64,000 nt of DNA from Solirubrum puertoriconensis. GTDB taxonomy: Bacteria; Bacteroidota; Bacteroidia; Cytophagales; Hymenobacteraceae. Every line of letters begins with the position of its first letter. Within the stretch, counting starts at the first letter, position 1. Positions 42,355 through 50,032 of the stretch are shown one piece after another. The DNA lies in NCBI RefSeq assembly GCF_001483135.1, contig NZ_LNAL01000008.1, forward strand, positions 930,001 through 994,000, read 5' to 3'. Position numbers and translations under genes: made by a program. The notes beneath the pieces were generated by a model that was given only the letters and a program-made list of their open reading frames with translations, ran no database searches and was not told the DNA's origin.

Positions 42355-42882
42355 ATGAAAACCAAGTCAACGCTTGTTCTGACCATTATGCACGTCGTGT
42401 TCTGGGTCTTGCTTATTGGGTTGTGTATCCAGACCGGAGCCATTTTGATTTCGTTTTTCGTGAGCGAGTTTATCAACCCAGTGGGTGCGCAAAACTTGTA
42501 CATGGGCTTGAACTTGGCTGCGCTAAAAAATTACGCCGAGGTGCACTACGTGGGTGTGGTATCCTTTATGGTGTACTTCCTGGCGGTAAAAGCATACATG
42601 GCTTACTTGGTCATTCAGATTTTCCGAAAAATCGACTTCGCGGCGCCTTTCAGTCCGGAAATAGCTGCGCTGATCACCAAAATCAGTCACGCTGCTTTGG
42701 CAGCCGGCGTAGTGGCCATAGTGGCCAACAACTACACTAAATGGCTGCTGAAGAGCGTGTCAATTGACATCCCAACTTGGTCGGGCGATGAGTTCCTGTT
42801 TCTGGCCGGCATCATCTTCATCATCGCGCAGGTGTTTCAGAAGGGCACCGACATCCAGGCGGAAAACGCATTGACGGTTTAG
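42355..42882 (+). CDS. DUF2975 membrane protein
   Basis: A 175-residue protein with four hydrophobic segments (IMHVVFWVLLIGLC, VSFMVYFLAVKAYMAYLVI, ISHAALAAGVVAIVA, EFLFLAGIIFIIAQVF), matching DUF2975. The family is usually encoded next to a small Xre regulator, as here, where only three bases separate the genes. The role is unknown. Base composition is less GC-rich than most of the window. Confidence 0.85.
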   Translation: MKTKSTLVLTIMHVVFWVLLIGLCIQTGAILISFFVSEFINPVGAQNLYMGLNLAALKNYAEVHYVGVVSFMVYFLAVKAYMAYLVIQIFRKIDFAAPFSPEIAALITKISHAALAAGVVAIVANNYTKWLLKSVSIDIPTWSGDEFLFLAGIIFIIAQVFQKGTDIQAENALTV

Positions 42883-42885
42883 CAA

Positions 42886-43086
42886 ATGCCGATAATCGTG
42901 AACCTGGATGTGATGATGGCCAAGCGCAAAATGTCGTTAAGCGAACTGTCGGAGAAAGTGGACTTGACGCTGGCCAACCTTTCCATTCTGAAAACGGGCA
43001 AAGCCAAAGCCGTACGCTTCAGTACGCTCGAAGCGCTGTGTAAAGCGCTAGACTGCCAACCCGGCGATTTATTGGAATGTCGCTGA
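42886..43086 (+). CDS. Small Xre-family regulator
   Basis: A 66-residue single helix-turn-helix protein of the Cro/CI-like YozG type: MPIIVNLDVMMAKRKMSLSE, then LSEKVDLTLANLSILKTGKA and STLEALCKALDCQPGDLLE. Proteins of this type are typically paired with DUF2975. It probably controls its own operon through the palindrome at 42257. Confidence 0.88.
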   Translation: MPIIVNLDVMMAKRKMSLSELSEKVDLTLANLSILKTGKAKAVRFSTLEALCKALDCQPGDLLECR

Positions 43087-44352: not shown

Positions 44353-44530
44353 TGTAGTAGGTGATAGTGTTTTGGGTAGGGTAAAAACGCCATCTGGGTA
44401 GCGGCGGCTCTCTATACGTGTACCAACGAAAAAAGCTGAAGCAACATTATAGATGCCATTTTGCTACGGAGAAAGGTACAATAATTAAAATTCAAAATGC
44501 AAGATGATTGTTCAGCTATTCGGAAAAAAT

Positions 44531-44563
44531 AATCCCCCGTTAAGTTGAGCTTAACGGGGGATT
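44531..44563 (-). terminator. Terminator of ferritin-like unit 3
   Basis: Perfect 14-base arms (44531-44544 and 44550-44563) with a five-base loop; the minus strand runs into a T tract. It closes the 46192-44585 two-gene unit. Confidence 0.9.
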
Positions 44564-44584
44564 AATGTTCGGGCTTGCAGCAGC

Positions 44585-45448
44585 TTACGCCGTGAACAGC
44601 GCCACTACGGCTTGCACGGCTGTTGCCGTAAGCGGCTCGTCGATAGCCTCCGTTACGGCGGCTCGTCTCTCGGCCTCGGTAATGGCCGGCGAGAAGGGCA
44701 ATAGGGGAGTAATTGTACTAAGGTCAACTTCGCGGGTGGCGGTTACCAATTGGCGTACGCGGTCTTCGCCGGCGTACACCGGAGCCGTAGCCGAGGGCAC
44801 GGGGCCGCCGTTGTCGGTGGCGCTAACCCAGGGCTTCACGTCGGTGCCGCGCTGGCGGCGCAGCAGGCGCAGGTGCGCGCTGTGGCGGCCTTCAACCGTT
44901 ACGCCACGCGTGGCCAAGGTCAGCAGATCGTCGTTGCTGGTGAGCAGCGACACTTGCCCTAGGTAAGCCCGCACGCTCAGGTCTTCGAGAACCTGCGCCA
45001 CGGCCAGCATGGTGTCGGTGTTCGAAAACACATCGGCAAAGGCGGCAGCTTGCGTGCCGCCGCGAGTGCCCGTGAAGTCGTAGCGGGGGCGGGCTGGTAC
45101 TGCACCACCCGATGCCGCAACTATGGCCTCGAGCCGGGCAATGTGCTGGCGCTGCTGCTCCCGGATGAGGGTAAGATCGGGCTGAATAGCGGCCGGCACG
45201 AGCGTGGGGGTGCCCAGCGCACGGCCGTAAAATTCATCTTGCAGCCACTCAACCTGCAGCAACAGCAGCAAAGCATCGAGCTGGGTGCCGGCACGTTGTG
45301 CCACGGCGGGTTGCGCCACGGCACCTAGGGCCAGCGGCAGGGTAGCGGCAGCCGTGCGAGCCAGTTGCGACAGGGCGCTGCGGCGGGCCGTGGGCTGCTC
45401 CGATGCAGCGGCGCCGGCCAGTTGATCAATAAGCGAAAGCAAATTCAT
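44585..45448 (-). CDS. Ferritin-like partner protein, unit 3 (one ligand lost)
   Basis: A 287-residue ferritin-like protein of the PCC13-62/Ferritin_2 type. Its N-terminus, with ARRSALSQL and a hydrophobic Ala/Leu stretch ending AVAQ, looks like a twin-arginine export signal. Ligands by alignment with the paralogues: E67 is present, the second helix ExxH has become Q99-xx-H102 (Glu to Gln), E155 and E186-xx-H189 (VEGRH) are present. So one metal ligand appears lost. It follows the lipoprotein member by 15 bases. Length and layout match the partners at 46405 and 48459. Confidence 0.82.
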   Translation of the reverse strand: MNLLSLIDQLAGAAASEQPTARRSALSQLARTAAATLPLALGAVAQPAVAQRAGTQLDALLLLLQVEWLQDEFYGRALGTPTLVPAAIQPDLTLIREQQRQHIARLEAIVAASGGAVPARPRYDFTGTRGGTQAAAFADVFSNTDTMLAVAQVLEDLSVRAYLGQVSLLTSNDDLLTLATRGVTVEGRHSAHLRLLRRQRGTDVKPWVSATDNGGPVPSATAPVYAGEDRVRQLVTATREVDLSTITPLLPFSPAITEAERRAAVTEAIDEPLTATAVQAVVALFTA

Positions 45449-45463
45449 GGGGGAAAGCCGGCC

Positions 45464-46192
45464 TTAGGTGGTGGGTAAACCGTTGCCGGTAATAGGCAAG
45501 GTGGTGTACTTGCTAAGCTCAGTGAGCACCGCCGCGGGCGCCAGAGCCTGGTTGAAGCCCGCATCGACGCCGGTGTTGGCTACCGCTTCGGCTGCCGCAA
45601 AGGAGCCGGGCTGCAGCAAATCGCGCACGGTGGCCGAGTGGCGACCCTCTACGGCGGCCAAGCGCACCGCAAGCTGCATGTACACCGTGCTCGTGAACAG
45701 GCGAATAACCCCGCCCAACGCGGCCGTGCCTAGGTCCTCAATGGTGCGGGCAGCTGTGAGCACGCCTTGGCGGTTGGTAAGCGTAAGGCTGGCGTAGTTG
45801 AACTCGACGCCCACCAGGTTGCTAATGCCGATGTCGTTTACCAACGAGTTTTCCTTGAGCACGCTGCCCAGCAGCTCGCGGTGCATCAGCTCGTGGCGGT
45901 GGATGTCGCGCAGCAAGGCGAGGTCGGCAGAGGTAAGGTCGGAGGGCGGCGTGGTGATTACGCGCTGGTAGAAATCGGCCGAAAAGCGCTCCAGCAAAAA
46001 CAAGTACGCTACCAAGCCAGCGTCGCCGGTGGGCAACTCAAAGGTGGTAGCAACGGGTTCGGGTTCGGGGTCATCGTCGCCGCAGGCCGCCAGCAGCAGC
46101 GAAGCGGCGGTAAGGGCACCGGCCTGGCGCAAAAACGTGCGGCGGGGCGGTACTTCCGGTTGCGGACGGAAGGCAGACTGTGCGTCGGACAT
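45464..46192 (-). CDS. Ferritin-like Tat lipoprotein, unit 3
   Basis: A 242-residue predicted Tat lipoprotein. RRTFLRQ is followed by a hydrophobic run and lipobox LLLAAC with Cys37, then GDDDPEPEP. The ferritin-like four-helix domain keeps all ligands: E68, E101-xx-H104 (HELMH), E152 and E182-xx-H185 (VEGRH). It may bind or oxidise iron at the cell envelope; this is family inference. ATG 46192 (MSDAQSAF) is preferred, as the frame from 46312 lacks a sensible leader. First gene of its unit with its own promoter box. Confidence 0.82.
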   Translation of the reverse strand: MSDAQSAFRPQPEVPPRRTFLRQAGALTAASLLLAACGDDDPEPEPVATTFELPTGDAGLVAYLFLLERFSADFYQRVITTPPSDLTSADLALLRDIHRHELMHRELLGSVLKENSLVNDIGISNLVGVEFNYASLTLTNRQGVLTAARTIEDLGTAALGGVIRLFTSTVYMQLAVRLAAVEGRHSATVRDLLQPGSFAAAEAVANTGVDAGFNQALAPAAVLTELSKYTTLPITGNGLPTT

Positions 46193-46233
46193 GCGTAGAG
46201 AAAATACGTAGCGGCCAGCAAAGGCCTGAACGG

Positions 46234-46241
46234 CAAAGGTA
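46234..46241 (-). promoter_or_regulatory. -7 box of ferritin-like unit 3 (TACCTTTG)
   Basis: Minus-strand TACCTTTG, 41 bases before ATG 46192. It supports separate transcription of this unit. Confidence 0.45.
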
Positions 46242-46332
46242 GTCCGTTCGGGCTGAAATGAAGCAGGCTTTTCGGTAGCGAGTCGCCCCGCGCTCAAAGC
46301 GTTGCACGGCACCTAGGGCAGGCATAAAAAAA

Positions 46333-46358
46333 GACGACCCCTGTTGCCAGGGGTCGTC
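46333..46358 (-). terminator. Terminator of ferritin-like unit 2
   Basis: Perfect 10-base arms (46333-46342 and 46349-46358) and a run of seven T on the minus strand, between units 2 and 3. Confidence 0.9.
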
Positions 46359-46404
46359 GCAGTGGGTTTTTCAGCAACGGCAACCTAGGGCTGCCGTGCT
46401 TGGC

Positions 46405-47343
46405 TTAGGCAAACAGCACGGTGTTGCCCGGCGCCCGGAACAAGCGGGCAATGCTCTTCACGGTGTTGGCGTCCAGCGGTTCGTCGAACGACTCCGAGGC
46501 GCCTGCTGCCGTGATGGTAACGCCGGTGGTGTTCGTCTGGATGTTCACGCCGGCTTGGGTAATGTTGCTTTCAGCCGGGAAGAAAATATCCGTAGCACCG
46601 CCGGTAGCCGGGGTGCCCGGGCCGTAGATGGGAGTGGTAGTGGGCGGAGCCGAGCCGCCGTTGTCGGTACCCGAAATCCAGCTCTTCGGCTTCTGGTTGA
46701 GGTTGTTCATATCGGCCGCAGCGCCGGGGCCACCACGACGAATGGAACGGATGTGCGACGAGTGACGAGCCTCAACCGAGTGAATGTTCAGGGCGGCTTC
46801 GAGCAGGTCTTTGTTCGGCATCAGAATGGGAGCACCGCCTTTGTAGGCGCGCACGCCGGTGTCAACAAAGCCTTGGGCTACCCCGAAGTACGTGGCTTGG
46901 TTGGTAAACACATCGGGGAAACGGCCGCCGCCAGTGTAATCGAAAGCGGTAACGGGCGGGTCGGTTTGGCTGAAGGCCTGCGAACCTAGGGCGCCGCGCA
47001 GTACTTTGATGTGGCCCGACTCGTCGTTGCGAATTTTCTCAATACCGGGGCGCTCGGCGGCCGGAATAAGGTTGGCTGACTTCAGGCCCGTGTCATAGAA
47101 GTAAAACTCCAGGTACTCAAGCTGCAAGGCCAGGTTCAGCACGGCTGCGATTTCGGCAGGCAGCGAACCGGTTTGGCCGTAAGCGCGCGTAAACAGGCCG
47201 CTGACCACGGCCGGCAGGGTAGCGGCCGTTACGGCTTTGCCCATATTGCCGAAGTGCTTGAATACGCGCCGGCGCGAATCGAACCGGTCGTACACTTCGG
47301 GGTCTACTTTTTCGATGTCGGAAATAAGCTTGAACAGATCCAT
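46405..47343 (-). CDS. Ferritin-like partner protein, unit 2 (one ligand lost)
   Basis: A 312-residue ferritin-like protein. The N-terminus MDLFKLISDIEKVDPEVYDR and SRRRVFKHFGNM with a hydrophobic run ending AYGQ suggest Tat export. Ligands: E76/E79 region present, E108-xx-H111 (DESGH) present, the third-helix Glu is V160 (GFVDTGV instead of FEDLGV), E191-xx-H194 (VEARH) present. Thus one ligand is lost. It has a long C-terminal extension after the domain (ANTVKSIARLFRAPG). It follows the lipoprotein member by 42 bases. Confidence 0.82.
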   Translation of the reverse strand: MDLFKLISDIEKVDPEVYDRFDSRRRVFKHFGNMGKAVTAATLPAVVSGLFTRAYGQTGSLPAEIAAVLNLALQLEYLEFYFYDTGLKSANLIPAAERPGIEKIRNDESGHIKVLRGALGSQAFSQTDPPVTAFDYTGGGRFPDVFTNQATYFGVAQGFVDTGVRAYKGGAPILMPNKDLLEAALNIHSVEARHSSHIRSIRRGGPGAAADMNNLNQKPKSWISGTDNGGSAPPTTTPIYGPGTPATGGATDIFFPAESNITQAGVNIQTNTTGVTITAAGASESFDEPLDANTVKSIARLFRAPGNTVLFA

Positions 47344-47385
47344 GATCGGAAGAGGCTGATGTTGATGTGGGGATGTAGCTGGCGA

Positions 47386-48147
47386 TTAGCGCAAGTTGTT
47401 GGCGCTTACTTTCGAGCCCGATTTCAGGAACTGGTTGGCCGTGGTTAGTACCTCGGCTGGGCGCTTGGAGCGCTCGAGGCCGGTGCCGTTGCCAACGCCC
47501 GGGCCCGAGGTGCCCGAAGTAGGCGTGAACAGATCCACCACATCGTTGTCGACGAAGGAATTGTAAGCCAGCAGGTCGCGAATCAGGCCTGCGTGGCGTG
47601 CCTCTACCGATACAATTTTACCGGCAATTACCAGGTAAGCCGGCGTTTGAATAAAGCGGCCAGCGCCGTTGTACGCCGCTACGCCTAGGTCTTCAAAAGC
47701 CTTGGCGGCGTTGAGCACGCTGCTGCGGTCGTTGAAGTTGATTGAGGAGAAGTCGGGCTCAAGCTGCTTAATGGCAGCGGTGCCCAGGGCTGTCTTGAAG
47801 AAGTCGGCGTGGGCCTTCTCATGGATAGCCAAGTCATCGAGGATCATGCGCTCGGCACTGCTGGCGTTGAGGCCGGTGTAGTATGTGCCGGTTTTTACCT
47901 GGGCATAAAACGCAGCCTCCAATTGCTCCAGTGCATATGCATAGTTCAGCACTCCGGTATCGCCCGAGCCTACATCAATGCCATTTTCAACGTCGTCGTC
48001 ATCGTCGTCGCAGCCGGCCAGCAGCAAGCCAGTAGCACAAGCCGTGAAGCCAGCGTAGCGCAAAAATGCACGTCGTTGGATGGGTTGCAAGAGCGCTCCG
48101 CCCTGCGTTGCCTCCTCCTGCTCAGGAGAGTGTTTGGTCGTGGCCAT
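47386..48147 (-). CDS. Ferritin-like Tat lipoprotein, unit 2
   Basis: A 253-residue predicted Tat lipoprotein. QRRAFLRYAGF precedes a hydrophobic core and lipobox LLLAGC with Cys46, followed directly by six Asp. A run of acidic residues after the Cys fits the surface-export signals known for some Bacteroidetes lipoproteins. The ligand set is complete: E74/E77, E110-xx-H113, E152 (FEDLG) and E182-xx-H185 (VEARH). ATG 48147 (MATTKHSPE) is used; the frame opens at 48186. Closest to the unit 1 lipoprotein. Confidence 0.85.
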   Translation of the reverse strand: MATTKHSPEQEEATQGGALLQPIQRRAFLRYAGFTACATGLLLAGCDDDDDDVENGIDVGSGDTGVLNYAYALEQLEAAFYAQVKTGTYYTGLNASSAERMILDDLAIHEKAHADFFKTALGTAAIKQLEPDFSSINFNDRSSVLNAAKAFEDLGVAAYNGAGRFIQTPAYLVIAGKIVSVEARHAGLIRDLLAYNSFVDNDVVDLFTPTSGTSGPGVGNGTGLERSKRPAEVLTTANQFLKSGSKVSANNLR

Positions 48148-48458
48148 ATAAACTTTTAGGGTTGGTTGGTGAATGGCAAAAGGCAATAGGCATCTGTCCG
48201 GAGCCGGGCACGGCTCGGTAGGAAAGAAACACCGGAATGGATTGGGGGAGGAACTGCAACCCTTTACGCGACCCTAACCACGCAAGGTTGTACTTGAGCT
48301 TGCTTTTTTATTATATAATATTGGTTTAATATATTTATAGCCGTGCTTAGGAACCCTTCTACAGGTATTGCCAGGGCCGAAACAGGCGGCTATAAATGCA
48401 CAAAGCCGACCTCCCGAAGGAGGCCGGCTTGGCAACAAAAAAATTGACTATTAATGCG
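48148..48458. other. AT-rich spacer between ferritin-like units 1 and 2
   Basis: No gene is seen. The segment 48305-48345 is extremely AT-rich (TATATAATATT, TATATTTATAG) in an otherwise GC-rich window and probably carries the unit 2 promoter, though no exact TAnnTTTG box was found on the minus strand. The right end holds the unit 1 terminator. Confidence 0.5.
48403..48430 (-). terminator. Terminator of ferritin-like unit 1
   Basis: Twelve-base arms (48403-48414 and 48419-48430) with one A-C mismatch and a four-base loop, just past the 48459 stop. The T run is weak. Confidence 0.6.
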
Positions 48459-49292
48459 CTAAGCGCGCACGTAGGGCGTAGCCAGCGTAGTAACGGTGCC
48501 GCGGTCGAGCGGCTCGTCGAAGGCTTCGCTTACCTCGGCAGCAGTGTAGCCCAAGGTAGTCAGGTTTACACCGGCTTGCGACACGTTGTCCTCGGCGGGG
48601 TGGTCGGCCACGGGGTTGCCGCCGCCATAAATGGCATCGGGCGCGCCGTTAGCTTCCTTGTTTGTAATCCAGCCAAACTGCTGGGCTCCGCCACCGGCCG
48701 CGGCGCGGCGCATCATGCGGATGTGCGCCGCGTGGCGAGCTTCAACCGAGTGAATTTGCAGCGCTGTTTGCAGCACGTTGTTCGGAGCACCCTTCAGAGC
48801 ACCGGCCTGGCCTTTGTAAGCACGTACGCCTAGGTCCTCGAAAGCCTGCGCAAACGTGAGGAACGAGTTGTAGGTGGCAAAGGCGTTGCCGAAATCGAAG
48901 CTGCGCGGAGCCGGAGCCGCTGCGCTACCTAGGGCCGAAGCCAGCAGCTGTACGTGCGCCGTTTCGTTGTCTTTGATTTTCTGAATGGCGTTGCGCGCGG
49001 CGCTGCCCGACGAAAGGTTAACCGCCAAGGTAGGGGCGGCCAGCGCCTGAACGTAGAACGCCTCCTCGAGGCGCTCGAGCAACAGGGCGTAGTTCAGCAC
49101 ATCGGTTACGCTGCTGCCCGACTGGGCCAGCGCTTTGTTGAATACCGAGCCAATGGCGATAGGCGCCGAAGCCAACGCAAACTTTTTGGCCATGTTGCCC
49201 AGCGACGCAAACGCATCGCGACGGGAGTTTAGTCGGCCCATTACCTCCGGGTCAACTTGTTCCAGGTCGGAAAGAATCTTGAACAGGTTCAT
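48459..49292 (-). CDS. Ferritin-like partner protein, unit 1 (ligands complete)
   Basis: A 277-residue ferritin-like protein. N-terminus MNLFKILSDLEQVDPEVMGR and SRRDAFASLGNM with a hydrophobic run ending KALAQ, likely a Tat signal. All ligands are kept: E73/E76, E110-xx-H113 (NETAH), E152 (FEDLGVRAY) and E184-xx-H187 (VEARH). It shares the C-terminal extension with its paralogues (AFDEPLDRGTV). It follows the lipoprotein member by 32 bases. It is the only partner of the three with the full set. Confidence 0.84.
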   Translation of the reverse strand: MNLFKILSDLEQVDPEVMGRLNSRRDAFASLGNMAKKFALASAPIAIGSVFNKALAQSGSSVTDVLNYALLLERLEEAFYVQALAAPTLAVNLSSGSAARNAIQKIKDNETAHVQLLASALGSAAAPAPRSFDFGNAFATYNSFLTFAQAFEDLGVRAYKGQAGALKGAPNNVLQTALQIHSVEARHAAHIRMMRRAAAGGGAQQFGWITNKEANGAPDAIYGGGNPVADHPAEDNVSQAGVNLTTLGYTAAEVSEAFDEPLDRGTVTTLATPYVRA

Positions 49293-49324
49293 TGCAGGAA
49301 AAACTAGCAGGGTTGAGGAATGGA

Positions 49325-50032
49325 CTAGCGGCCGACCTGGCTACCGTCGATTTTGTCTTTGATGAAGGGCTGCGCAGCCGTGAGCACGTCGCTTACCGAC
49401 AGGGCTTGATCGAGGCCCTGAGCATTCACCACATCGTTAGCGAAGGTACCGTTGCTGATCAGGTCGCGAATCACGGCCGCGTGGCGCGCCTCAACCGACA
49501 CGATTTTGCCGGCCAGCGTCAGGAAAGCCGTGCTTTGAAGCAGGGGGCCGGCGCCGTTGTAGGCCGCTACACCTAGGTCCTCAAACGTACGGGCGGTGGT
49601 CAGCACGCTGGTGCGGTCGTTGAAGTTTACCTTCGAGAAATCGGGCGTGAGGCCCTTGATGGCATTGTTGGCCAGCGCGGCTTTGAAGAAGTCGCGGTGC
49701 ACGGCCTCGTGCTTGGCAATGGCCTGCATAATGGCGCGCTCATCGGCCGTGATGCCGCTGTAGGGCGTAGCCACTACTTGAGCGTAGAAGGCCGCTTCGA
49801 GTTGCTCCAGGGCGTAAGCATAGTTCAGCACCCCGATGTCGCCCGAGCCGAGCTTCACGGCGTCGGAGTTCGGCATATCATCGTCGTCATCGTCGCAGCC
49901 GGCGAGCAGCAGGCCGGTGGCGCAGGCCGTAAGGCCGGTGTAGCGCATAAACAAGCGCCGGTCGATGGGCTGAACCAGCCGATTGCCCAGGCCTGTTTCC
50001 TCGGGGCCGGTGTGGTGTTGTTGGGTGGCCAT
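49325..50032 (-). CDS. Ferritin-like Tat lipoprotein, unit 1
   Basis: A 235-residue predicted Tat lipoprotein: DRRLFMRYTGL, lipobox LLLAGC with Cys46, then six Asp. Complete ligands E76/E79, E109-xx-H112 (HEAVH), E151 (FEDLG) and E181-xx-H184 (VEARH). It is very similar to the unit 2 lipoprotein through the whole length, so one of these units arose by duplication. First gene of unit 1. The 261 bases upstream to the divergent BatD-like gene hold one CCTAGG, and no minus-strand promoter box was found. Confidence 0.85.
   Translation of the reverse strand: MATQQHHTGPEETGLGNRLVQPIDRRLFMRYTGLTACATGLLLAGCDDDDDDMPNSDAVKLGSGDIGVLNYAYALEQLEAAFYAQVVATPYSGITADERAIMQAIAKHEAVHRDFFKAALANNAIKGLTPDFSKVNFNDRTSVLTTARTFEDLGVAAYNGAGPLLQSTAFLTLAGKIVSVEARHAAVIRDLISNGTFANDVVNAQGLDQALSVSDVLTAAQPFIKDKIDGSQVGR

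Follow-up and report, generated by a model that had tools for sequence, protein, structure and literature searches.

The DNA analysed here (the window) is a 64,000-nucleotide stretch of the Solirubrum puertoriconensis genome (contig NZ_LNAL01000008.1, positions 930,001 to 994,000 of the forward strand). At window positions 44585-50032 its minus strand carries six genes of the Ferritin_2 family (PF13668), which the list of open reading frames (ORFs) and a profile search resolve into three two-gene pairs, here named I, II and III. In each pair the first gene encodes a lipoprotein with a twin-arginine translocation (Tat) signal (chain A) and the second a longer partner with a Tat-type signal (chain B). 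All six proteins exceed the PF13668 cut-off (72-140 bits against 24.7; E-values from 7e-20 to 1e-40). A preliminary description made from the sequence had read the region as six minus-strand genes in three pairs, each consisting of a lipoprotein gene followed within 15-42 bases by that of a longer partner, and this layout holds: every ORF is present, and the gaps between A and B are 32, 42 and 15 bases in pairs I, II and III, respectively.

Pair I comprises A-I (49325-50032; 235 amino acids), in which the lipobox LLAGC is followed by DDDDDD, and B-I (48459-49292; 277 amino acids), which has a conserved C-terminal region with a DEPL motif in addition to the Ferritin_2 domain. The six predicted metal ligands are complete in B-I as well as in A-I (E76, E109, H112, E151, E181 and H184). 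Pair II consists of A-II (47386-48147; 253 amino acids), also with six ligands, and B-II (46405-47343; 312 amino acids), where the glutamate of the helix-3 ligand is replaced by valine. In pair III, A-III (45464-46192; 242 amino acids) has the complete set and B-III (44585-45448; 287 amino acids) has glutamine for the glutamate of the helix-2 ligand. The listed starts of A-II (TTG 48186) and A-III (GTG 46312) appear too early, and ATG 48147 and ATG 46192 were read instead. The B chains open with a conserved segment, MN....DPE...RR, and their C-terminal region, which carries an EAFDEPL-type motif, has no Pfam match beyond the ferritin-like domain.

Obligate pairing and two chain types

In this genome 8/8 of the PF13668 members above the cut-off lie in four A-B pairs, three in the window and one (pair IV) on contig C5; a ninth match is below the cut-off and unpaired. 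A wider census was based on two draws of genomes, one of 38 relatives and one of 296 members of the phylum, a few genomes being common to both, and 62 of these genomes had members above the cut-off. All 172 well-scoring members, found in 54 genomes of the same phylum, form 86 pairs. Eight solitary genes occur in eight other genomes, and all of them are distant members scoring below 42 bits; intact paired genes score at least 62 bits. Pairs were counted by contig, strand and distance, with two below-cut-off matches omitted and two fragments of a broken B gene in one genome (G010) counted as one. The A and B labels were checked on 91 pairs examined as DNA, whose sources overlap, so that a species may be represented more than once. 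The pairing of A and B is obligate, and the pair is indeed the repeated unit that had been proposed for the locus.

Most pairs are single, as the blocks consist of one pair in 59 cases, two in 6 and three in 5. The family is absent from 255 of the 296 genomes of the phylum draw, and the module is therefore optional, but whole wherever it is present. The gap from A to B has a median of 23 bases and ranges from -26 to 48 (86 of the 91 pairs), and no natural A-B fusion was found in about 100 loci examined. No account of paired Ferritin_2 genes was found among the papers listed by literature searches that covered neither subscription papers nor preprints.

Profiles derived from the A and B chains of the window label the loci AB, ABAB or ABABAB, with A before B in every labelled locus except window loci that are truncated at an end, the locus L021 with its frame-broken B (the broken gene of G010) and DRB0118 of Deinococcus radiodurans, which is solitary. 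In a tree of the ferritin-like domain (FastTree), one branch with a support of 96 separates all 91 B chains from the 91 A chains and DRB0118. Among the sequences are those of a Gemmatimonadaceae bin (L057) and of plasmids of Mesorhizobium (L058) and Methylobacterium (L059), so the division into A and B predates those transfers or lineages. The distance matrices of A and B, calculated without the pair of the frame-broken B, are correlated (r 0.74), and none of 2000 permutations was as high, the highest reaching 0.25. The two chain types suspected from the window thus form two clades that do not mix in 91 pairs, and their old age is well supported.

Export signals

Signals of the twin-arginine type, RRxFL in A and RRxx[FLM] in B, are present on all six window proteins, which agrees, as far as signals go, with the earlier impression that all six are exported. 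The A signals are of the form RRxF[LM] (for example DRRLFMRY...LLAGC) with a lipobox cysteine and a stretch of acidic residues, and the B signals have an RR region ending in an AxA-like site without a lipobox. In the alignments the first arginine is invariant and the second is conserved in 95% of A (67 rows) and 93% of B (66 rows). The TAT_signal Pfam model gave a sub-threshold match only, to A-III alone among the window proteins, and TatC is encoded in this genome. No type-IX tail model was among the NCBIfam matches of the six window proteins, which is a weak exclusion of type-IX secretion for B.

The lipid cysteine is found in 89 of the 91 A chains, and both A chains without it come from the alphaproteobacterial plasmids and retain the RR signal. 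It is followed by CDDDDDD in A-I and A-II and by CGDDDPE in A-III (runs given with the cysteine), so that 6, 6 and 4 of the next six residues are acidic. Surface lipoproteins have been assigned by a rule that asks for at least two acidic residues in the six positions following the lipid cysteine (the LES rule; PMC12578637), which was built on the export signals SDDDD of Bacteroides fragilis and SDDFE of Flavobacterium johnsoniae (PMC5080379). Such residues occur in 82 of the 89 lipidated A chains. As judged from these signals, the A chains of Bacteroidota are probably exposed at the cell surface. Since Tat translocates folded proteins, either A passes the outer membrane folded, or the acidic run is not an export signal here.

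Metal site, fold and relatives

The six-ligand di-metal set (E, ExxH, E, ExxH) is complete in 85/91 A chains, in 76/91 B chains and in DRB0118. Predicted models of A-I (mean predicted local distance difference test score, pLDDT, 85.2; predicted template modelling score, pTM, 0.74) and B-I (82.6 and 0.77) are both four-helix bundles, and the modelled A-I ends shortly after a short fifth helix. The nearest solved structure for both chains in Foldseek is the tardigrade ferritin-like metabolite phosphatase RvFeMP-1, with an E-value of 1.1e-5 for A and 5.4e-3 for B; for B it ranks first, although no match reaches 0.001. Structural re-alignment gave RvFeMP-1 a Z-score of 22.4 for A (the next being 15.3) and 19.3 for B (the next 14.2).

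RvFeMP-1 (RvY_06210; PDB 8kce, 8w9k and 8wai) resembles A and B in being a secreted Ferritin_2 protein built as a four-helix bundle with a short fifth helix, and its ligands E51, E90, H93 and E132 have counterparts in the pair chains. It differs from A-I, which has Gly for Asp135 and Glu for Asp162 (residue numbering by an offset of 3 derived by hand), and from the pair chains, in which no IgG-like domain was recognised; it is also a single-gene homodimer, whereas the pairs have two genes. Both RvFeMP-1 and DRB0118 are reported to be broad-range metal-dependent phosphatases, and dimers via helix 4 have been modelled for both types (PMC11616004).

DRB0118 is a PCC13-62-like protein of clade 2 (PMC11616004), the type with a secretion signal, a ferritin-like domain and no IgG-like domain; the first two of these traits are also seen in the window proteins. 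DRB0118 shares with the pairs the six ligands and Gly at the Asp135 position, has a lipobox-like N-terminus and is of the secreted type. Unlike the pairs, it has no second Ferritin_2 gene among its neighbours, and its scores against the A and B profiles are close to each other (60 and 65 bits). DRB0118 mutants are reported to be desiccation-sensitive and radiation-resistant (PMC1274311; PMC1978522). PCC13-62 of Craterostigma plantagineum, which we liken to the pairs by its description only, is likewise a secreted PF13668 protein; it is desiccation-induced and lacks an IgG-like domain, but it is a plant protein, and no paired arrangement is described for it in the available part of PMC11616004. 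The kinship of the window proteins with the PCC13-62 family, recognised in the preliminary description, is thus supported by the PF13668 matches and by that article.

Subunits of ferritin, bacterioferritin and Dps cages match A and B at Z-scores of 13-15, below RvFeMP-1 at 19-22. Heteromeric bacterioferritins are cytoplasmic iron-storage cages with two subunits from two genes. They set a precedent in that paralogous subunits of one ferritin-like particle play unequal roles (for example PMC6529640, PMC12120770 and PMC8945002), but their fold match to A and B is much weaker (9h1u and 9iig; Z about 13-14).

Differences between the pairs

Pairs I, II and III lie 0.99-2.60 (A) and 1.85-2.31 (B) substitutions per site from each other. 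Recent tandem amplification was considered and rejected on account of these large distances and of nearer relatives of each pair in other genomes; the pairs are, by their sequences, old lineages rather than recent copies. In all 17 Hymenobacter loci the BatD gene is followed by pair I, then pair III and then queG, without pair II; the B-I protein was used to retrieve these loci, and the presence of pair I therefore follows from selection. In this genome pair II is an extra one between pairs I and III. Two further genomes of the genus (G005 and G006) also have three consecutive pairs, as judged from coordinates.

Pair III is the fast one. Among its 18 loci, 4 retain all ligands in both chains, whereas at least one ligand is missing from one chain in 11 and from both chains in 3. 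Of the 11 chains counted that differ at the helix-2 ligand only, 10 are B chains with Q in place of E. Outside pair III, the twelve ligands are complete in 69 of the 73 pairs. Loss of the site from one chain with the partner kept would be expected of a heteromer with one working subunit, though relaxed selection might also explain it.

Possible function and alternative explanations

The pairs constitute a new branch, with paired members, of the known family PF13668, which links the desiccation biology of plants, tardigrades, Deinococcus and soil bacteria. A lineage that always has two exported chains is a defined unit for testing subunit roles, substrate and place of action. Because the partners co-occur so regularly, A and B probably form one two-part enzyme, and an envelope complex of two chain types would fit the obligate pairing, the clean split between A and B and the correlated trees. 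Our working model, to which we give an even chance, is that each pair is a Tat-exported di-metal hydrolase of two subunits, which is anchored in the envelope and serves under desiccation or damage stress. In this model both chains would be folded and loaded with two metal ions while still in the cytoplasm, and Tat would export them; A would receive a lipid and be retained in the outer membrane, probably at the cell surface, and B would be a soluble chain docking on A. By analogy with the activities reported for RvFeMP-1 and DRB0118, the di-metal site would most likely hydrolyse phosphate esters of metabolites that are small or damaged, and the A-B enzyme would aid survival of drying and of oxidative or radiation damage. 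We infer the contact between A and B, the phosphatase activity, the identity of the metal, the surface location and the role in stress.

Several points weigh against this model. Asp135, reported to be essential in RvFeMP-1 (PMC11616004), aligns to Gly, which is found there in 85/91 A and 81/91 B chains. Its absence alone does not exclude a phosphatase, because the phosphatase-active DRB0118 also has Gly there. The reported phosphatase rates are, however, one to two orders of magnitude below those of known metabolite phosphatases, and DRB0118 was assayed as a fusion with maltose-binding protein (PMC11616004). B-II and B-III are each one ligand short, no stress genes recurred in the survey of neighbouring genes described below, and the correlation of the A and B trees partly reflects shared species history, the nearest neighbours agreeing in 46 of 90 cases. 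In addition, A on the outside and B in the periplasm would be apart and would meet only if B travels with A. A more elaborate version, which we propose tentatively and would not expect to hold in full, is that A and B form an obligate heteromeric clade, fold and load metal together in the cytoplasm, cross Tat as one cargo and are then brought to the outside of the outer membrane by the acidic-signal route, with one chain of pair III acting as a non-catalytic partner of the other. If so, the acidic-signal lipoprotein route must pass a folded metalloprotein; a Tat-exported lipoprotein with a surface-export-like signal would also allow one to ask whether the outer-membrane route carries folded protein.

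The same separation would suit an arrangement in which A and B are separate enzymes of one transcript, one anchored and the other soluble, which share their substrates but work in different places and form no complex. Each chain usually has its own full metal site and its own RR signal, A would be outside by virtue of its acidic run with B left in the periplasm, and DRB0118 works with no partner in its neighbourhood. We nevertheless regard this arrangement as rather improbable, since one chain never occurs without the other in the 86 pairs, nor in the plasmid copies of other phyla, and since the 11 of 18 pair-III loci that lost ligands in one chain kept the pair, which is easier to understand if the function is shared.

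Other alternatives concern the chemistry. The E/ExxH/E/ExxH set, which also counts against our model, is canonical for redox di-iron and di-manganese proteins, among them ferritins and bacterioferritins, and damage by drying is largely oxidative. The pairs could accordingly be envelope redox or metal-handling proteins, either peroxide-consuming in the manner of manganese catalases or acting in ferroxidation or metal buffering. The closest fold and the only assayed relatives are, however, reported as phosphatases (PMC11616004), and we consider the redox alternative unlikely. Chemistry might even be dispensable, with the pairs serving as non-catalytic envelope protectants that shield dry surfaces and hold metal mainly for structure: in 14 of the 18 pair-III pairs at least one chain is short of a ligand, yet both genes are still open. 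Retention of all twelve ligands in the great majority of the other pairs, in contrast, argues for chemistry and makes such a protectant very improbable.

Hairpins and promoter-like motifs

A strong hairpin follows each of the three pairs on the minus strand, and each folds better than 200 of 200 shuffled sequences (z-scores of -5.66, -5.62 and -7.04). Those after pair II (46333-46358; 11 base pairs and U7) and pair III (44530-44564; 15 base pairs and U6) resemble intrinsic terminators and are the only two of the three listed by the terminator scan, which overall was at chance (7 sites against 8.1 in shuffles). The hairpin after pair I (48397-48434; -27.1 kcal/mol) is absent from that list. The idea that each pair ends at its own hairpin is therefore correct as to the structures, but a U-tract follows only two of them (46333 and 44530), and the label of terminator is weaker for the hairpin near 48403 because its stem lacks a T-run. 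A scan for sigma-70-type promoters in the window was at chance level (3 matches against 1.9). TAnnTTTG is the consensus of the Bacteroidota -7 box; one match lies upstream of A-III (46234-46241, minus strand), but the motif alone is no better than chance, with 23 matches in the 64-kb window when both strands are counted.

Genomic neighbourhood and pair IV

In the survey of neighbouring genes (26 loci, 268 ORFs), only three clusters of proteins that are not ferritin-like recur in at least three loci, one of them being a LytTR response regulator. The pair looks self-contained, because nothing recurs beside it beyond these three small clusters. Pfam assigned the scanned neighbour proteins to pentapeptide, creatininase, YkuD, fasciclin, SDR, LytTR, BatD, S24 and RecX families, one being without a match; a link to extracytoplasmic function (ECF) sigma and anti-sigma factors, suspected from ORF sizes, was thereby rejected for these proteins. 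An annotated anti-sigma gene lies near one Methylobacterium plasmid copy.

A gene for a BatD-like protein (PF13584; 50276-51892, plus strand) adjoins pair I, and a BatD-like gene also flanks a pair in another genus (L090). On the plus strand at 42355-43086 there is a gene for a DUF2975 membrane protein with a small HTH_26 regulator directly after it. Pairs of A and B also occur on plasmids of Mesorhizobium (L058:4854-6214) and Methylobacterium radiotolerans (L059:4833-6253), and both of these A chains share about 60% identity with A-I in the part that matches and have an RR signal without a lipid cysteine.

Pair IV is located on the 259-kb contig C5 of this genome (G000:C5:232444-234149, or L089:7443-9149), 230 bases from a divergent pair of S24 and Y-family polymerase genes (umuDC-like). 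A 4.28-kb block with pair IV, the umuDC-like pair included, is 85% identical to one on a plasmid of Hymenobacter sp. YIM 151858-1 (L060), and in another relative (L091) recX adjoins the pair. The umuDC-like and recX neighbours fit a role in damage response, but they are few.

The palindrome CCTAGG occurs at 102 sites in the window (for example at 48829, 48928 and 49572) against 14.1 expected from shuffles, mostly in the contexts ACCTAGGG and CCCTAGGT. A longer pattern based on it was counted 250 times in this genome and 312 times in G005, but four other genomes of the genus have 0-4 copies each and two of the order have none. It is a highly iterated palindrome of one lineage, comparable to HIP1 of cyanobacteria. 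CCTAGG is sparse around pair IV, with 2 sites in an 18-kb stretch, which suggests a separate origin of that region.

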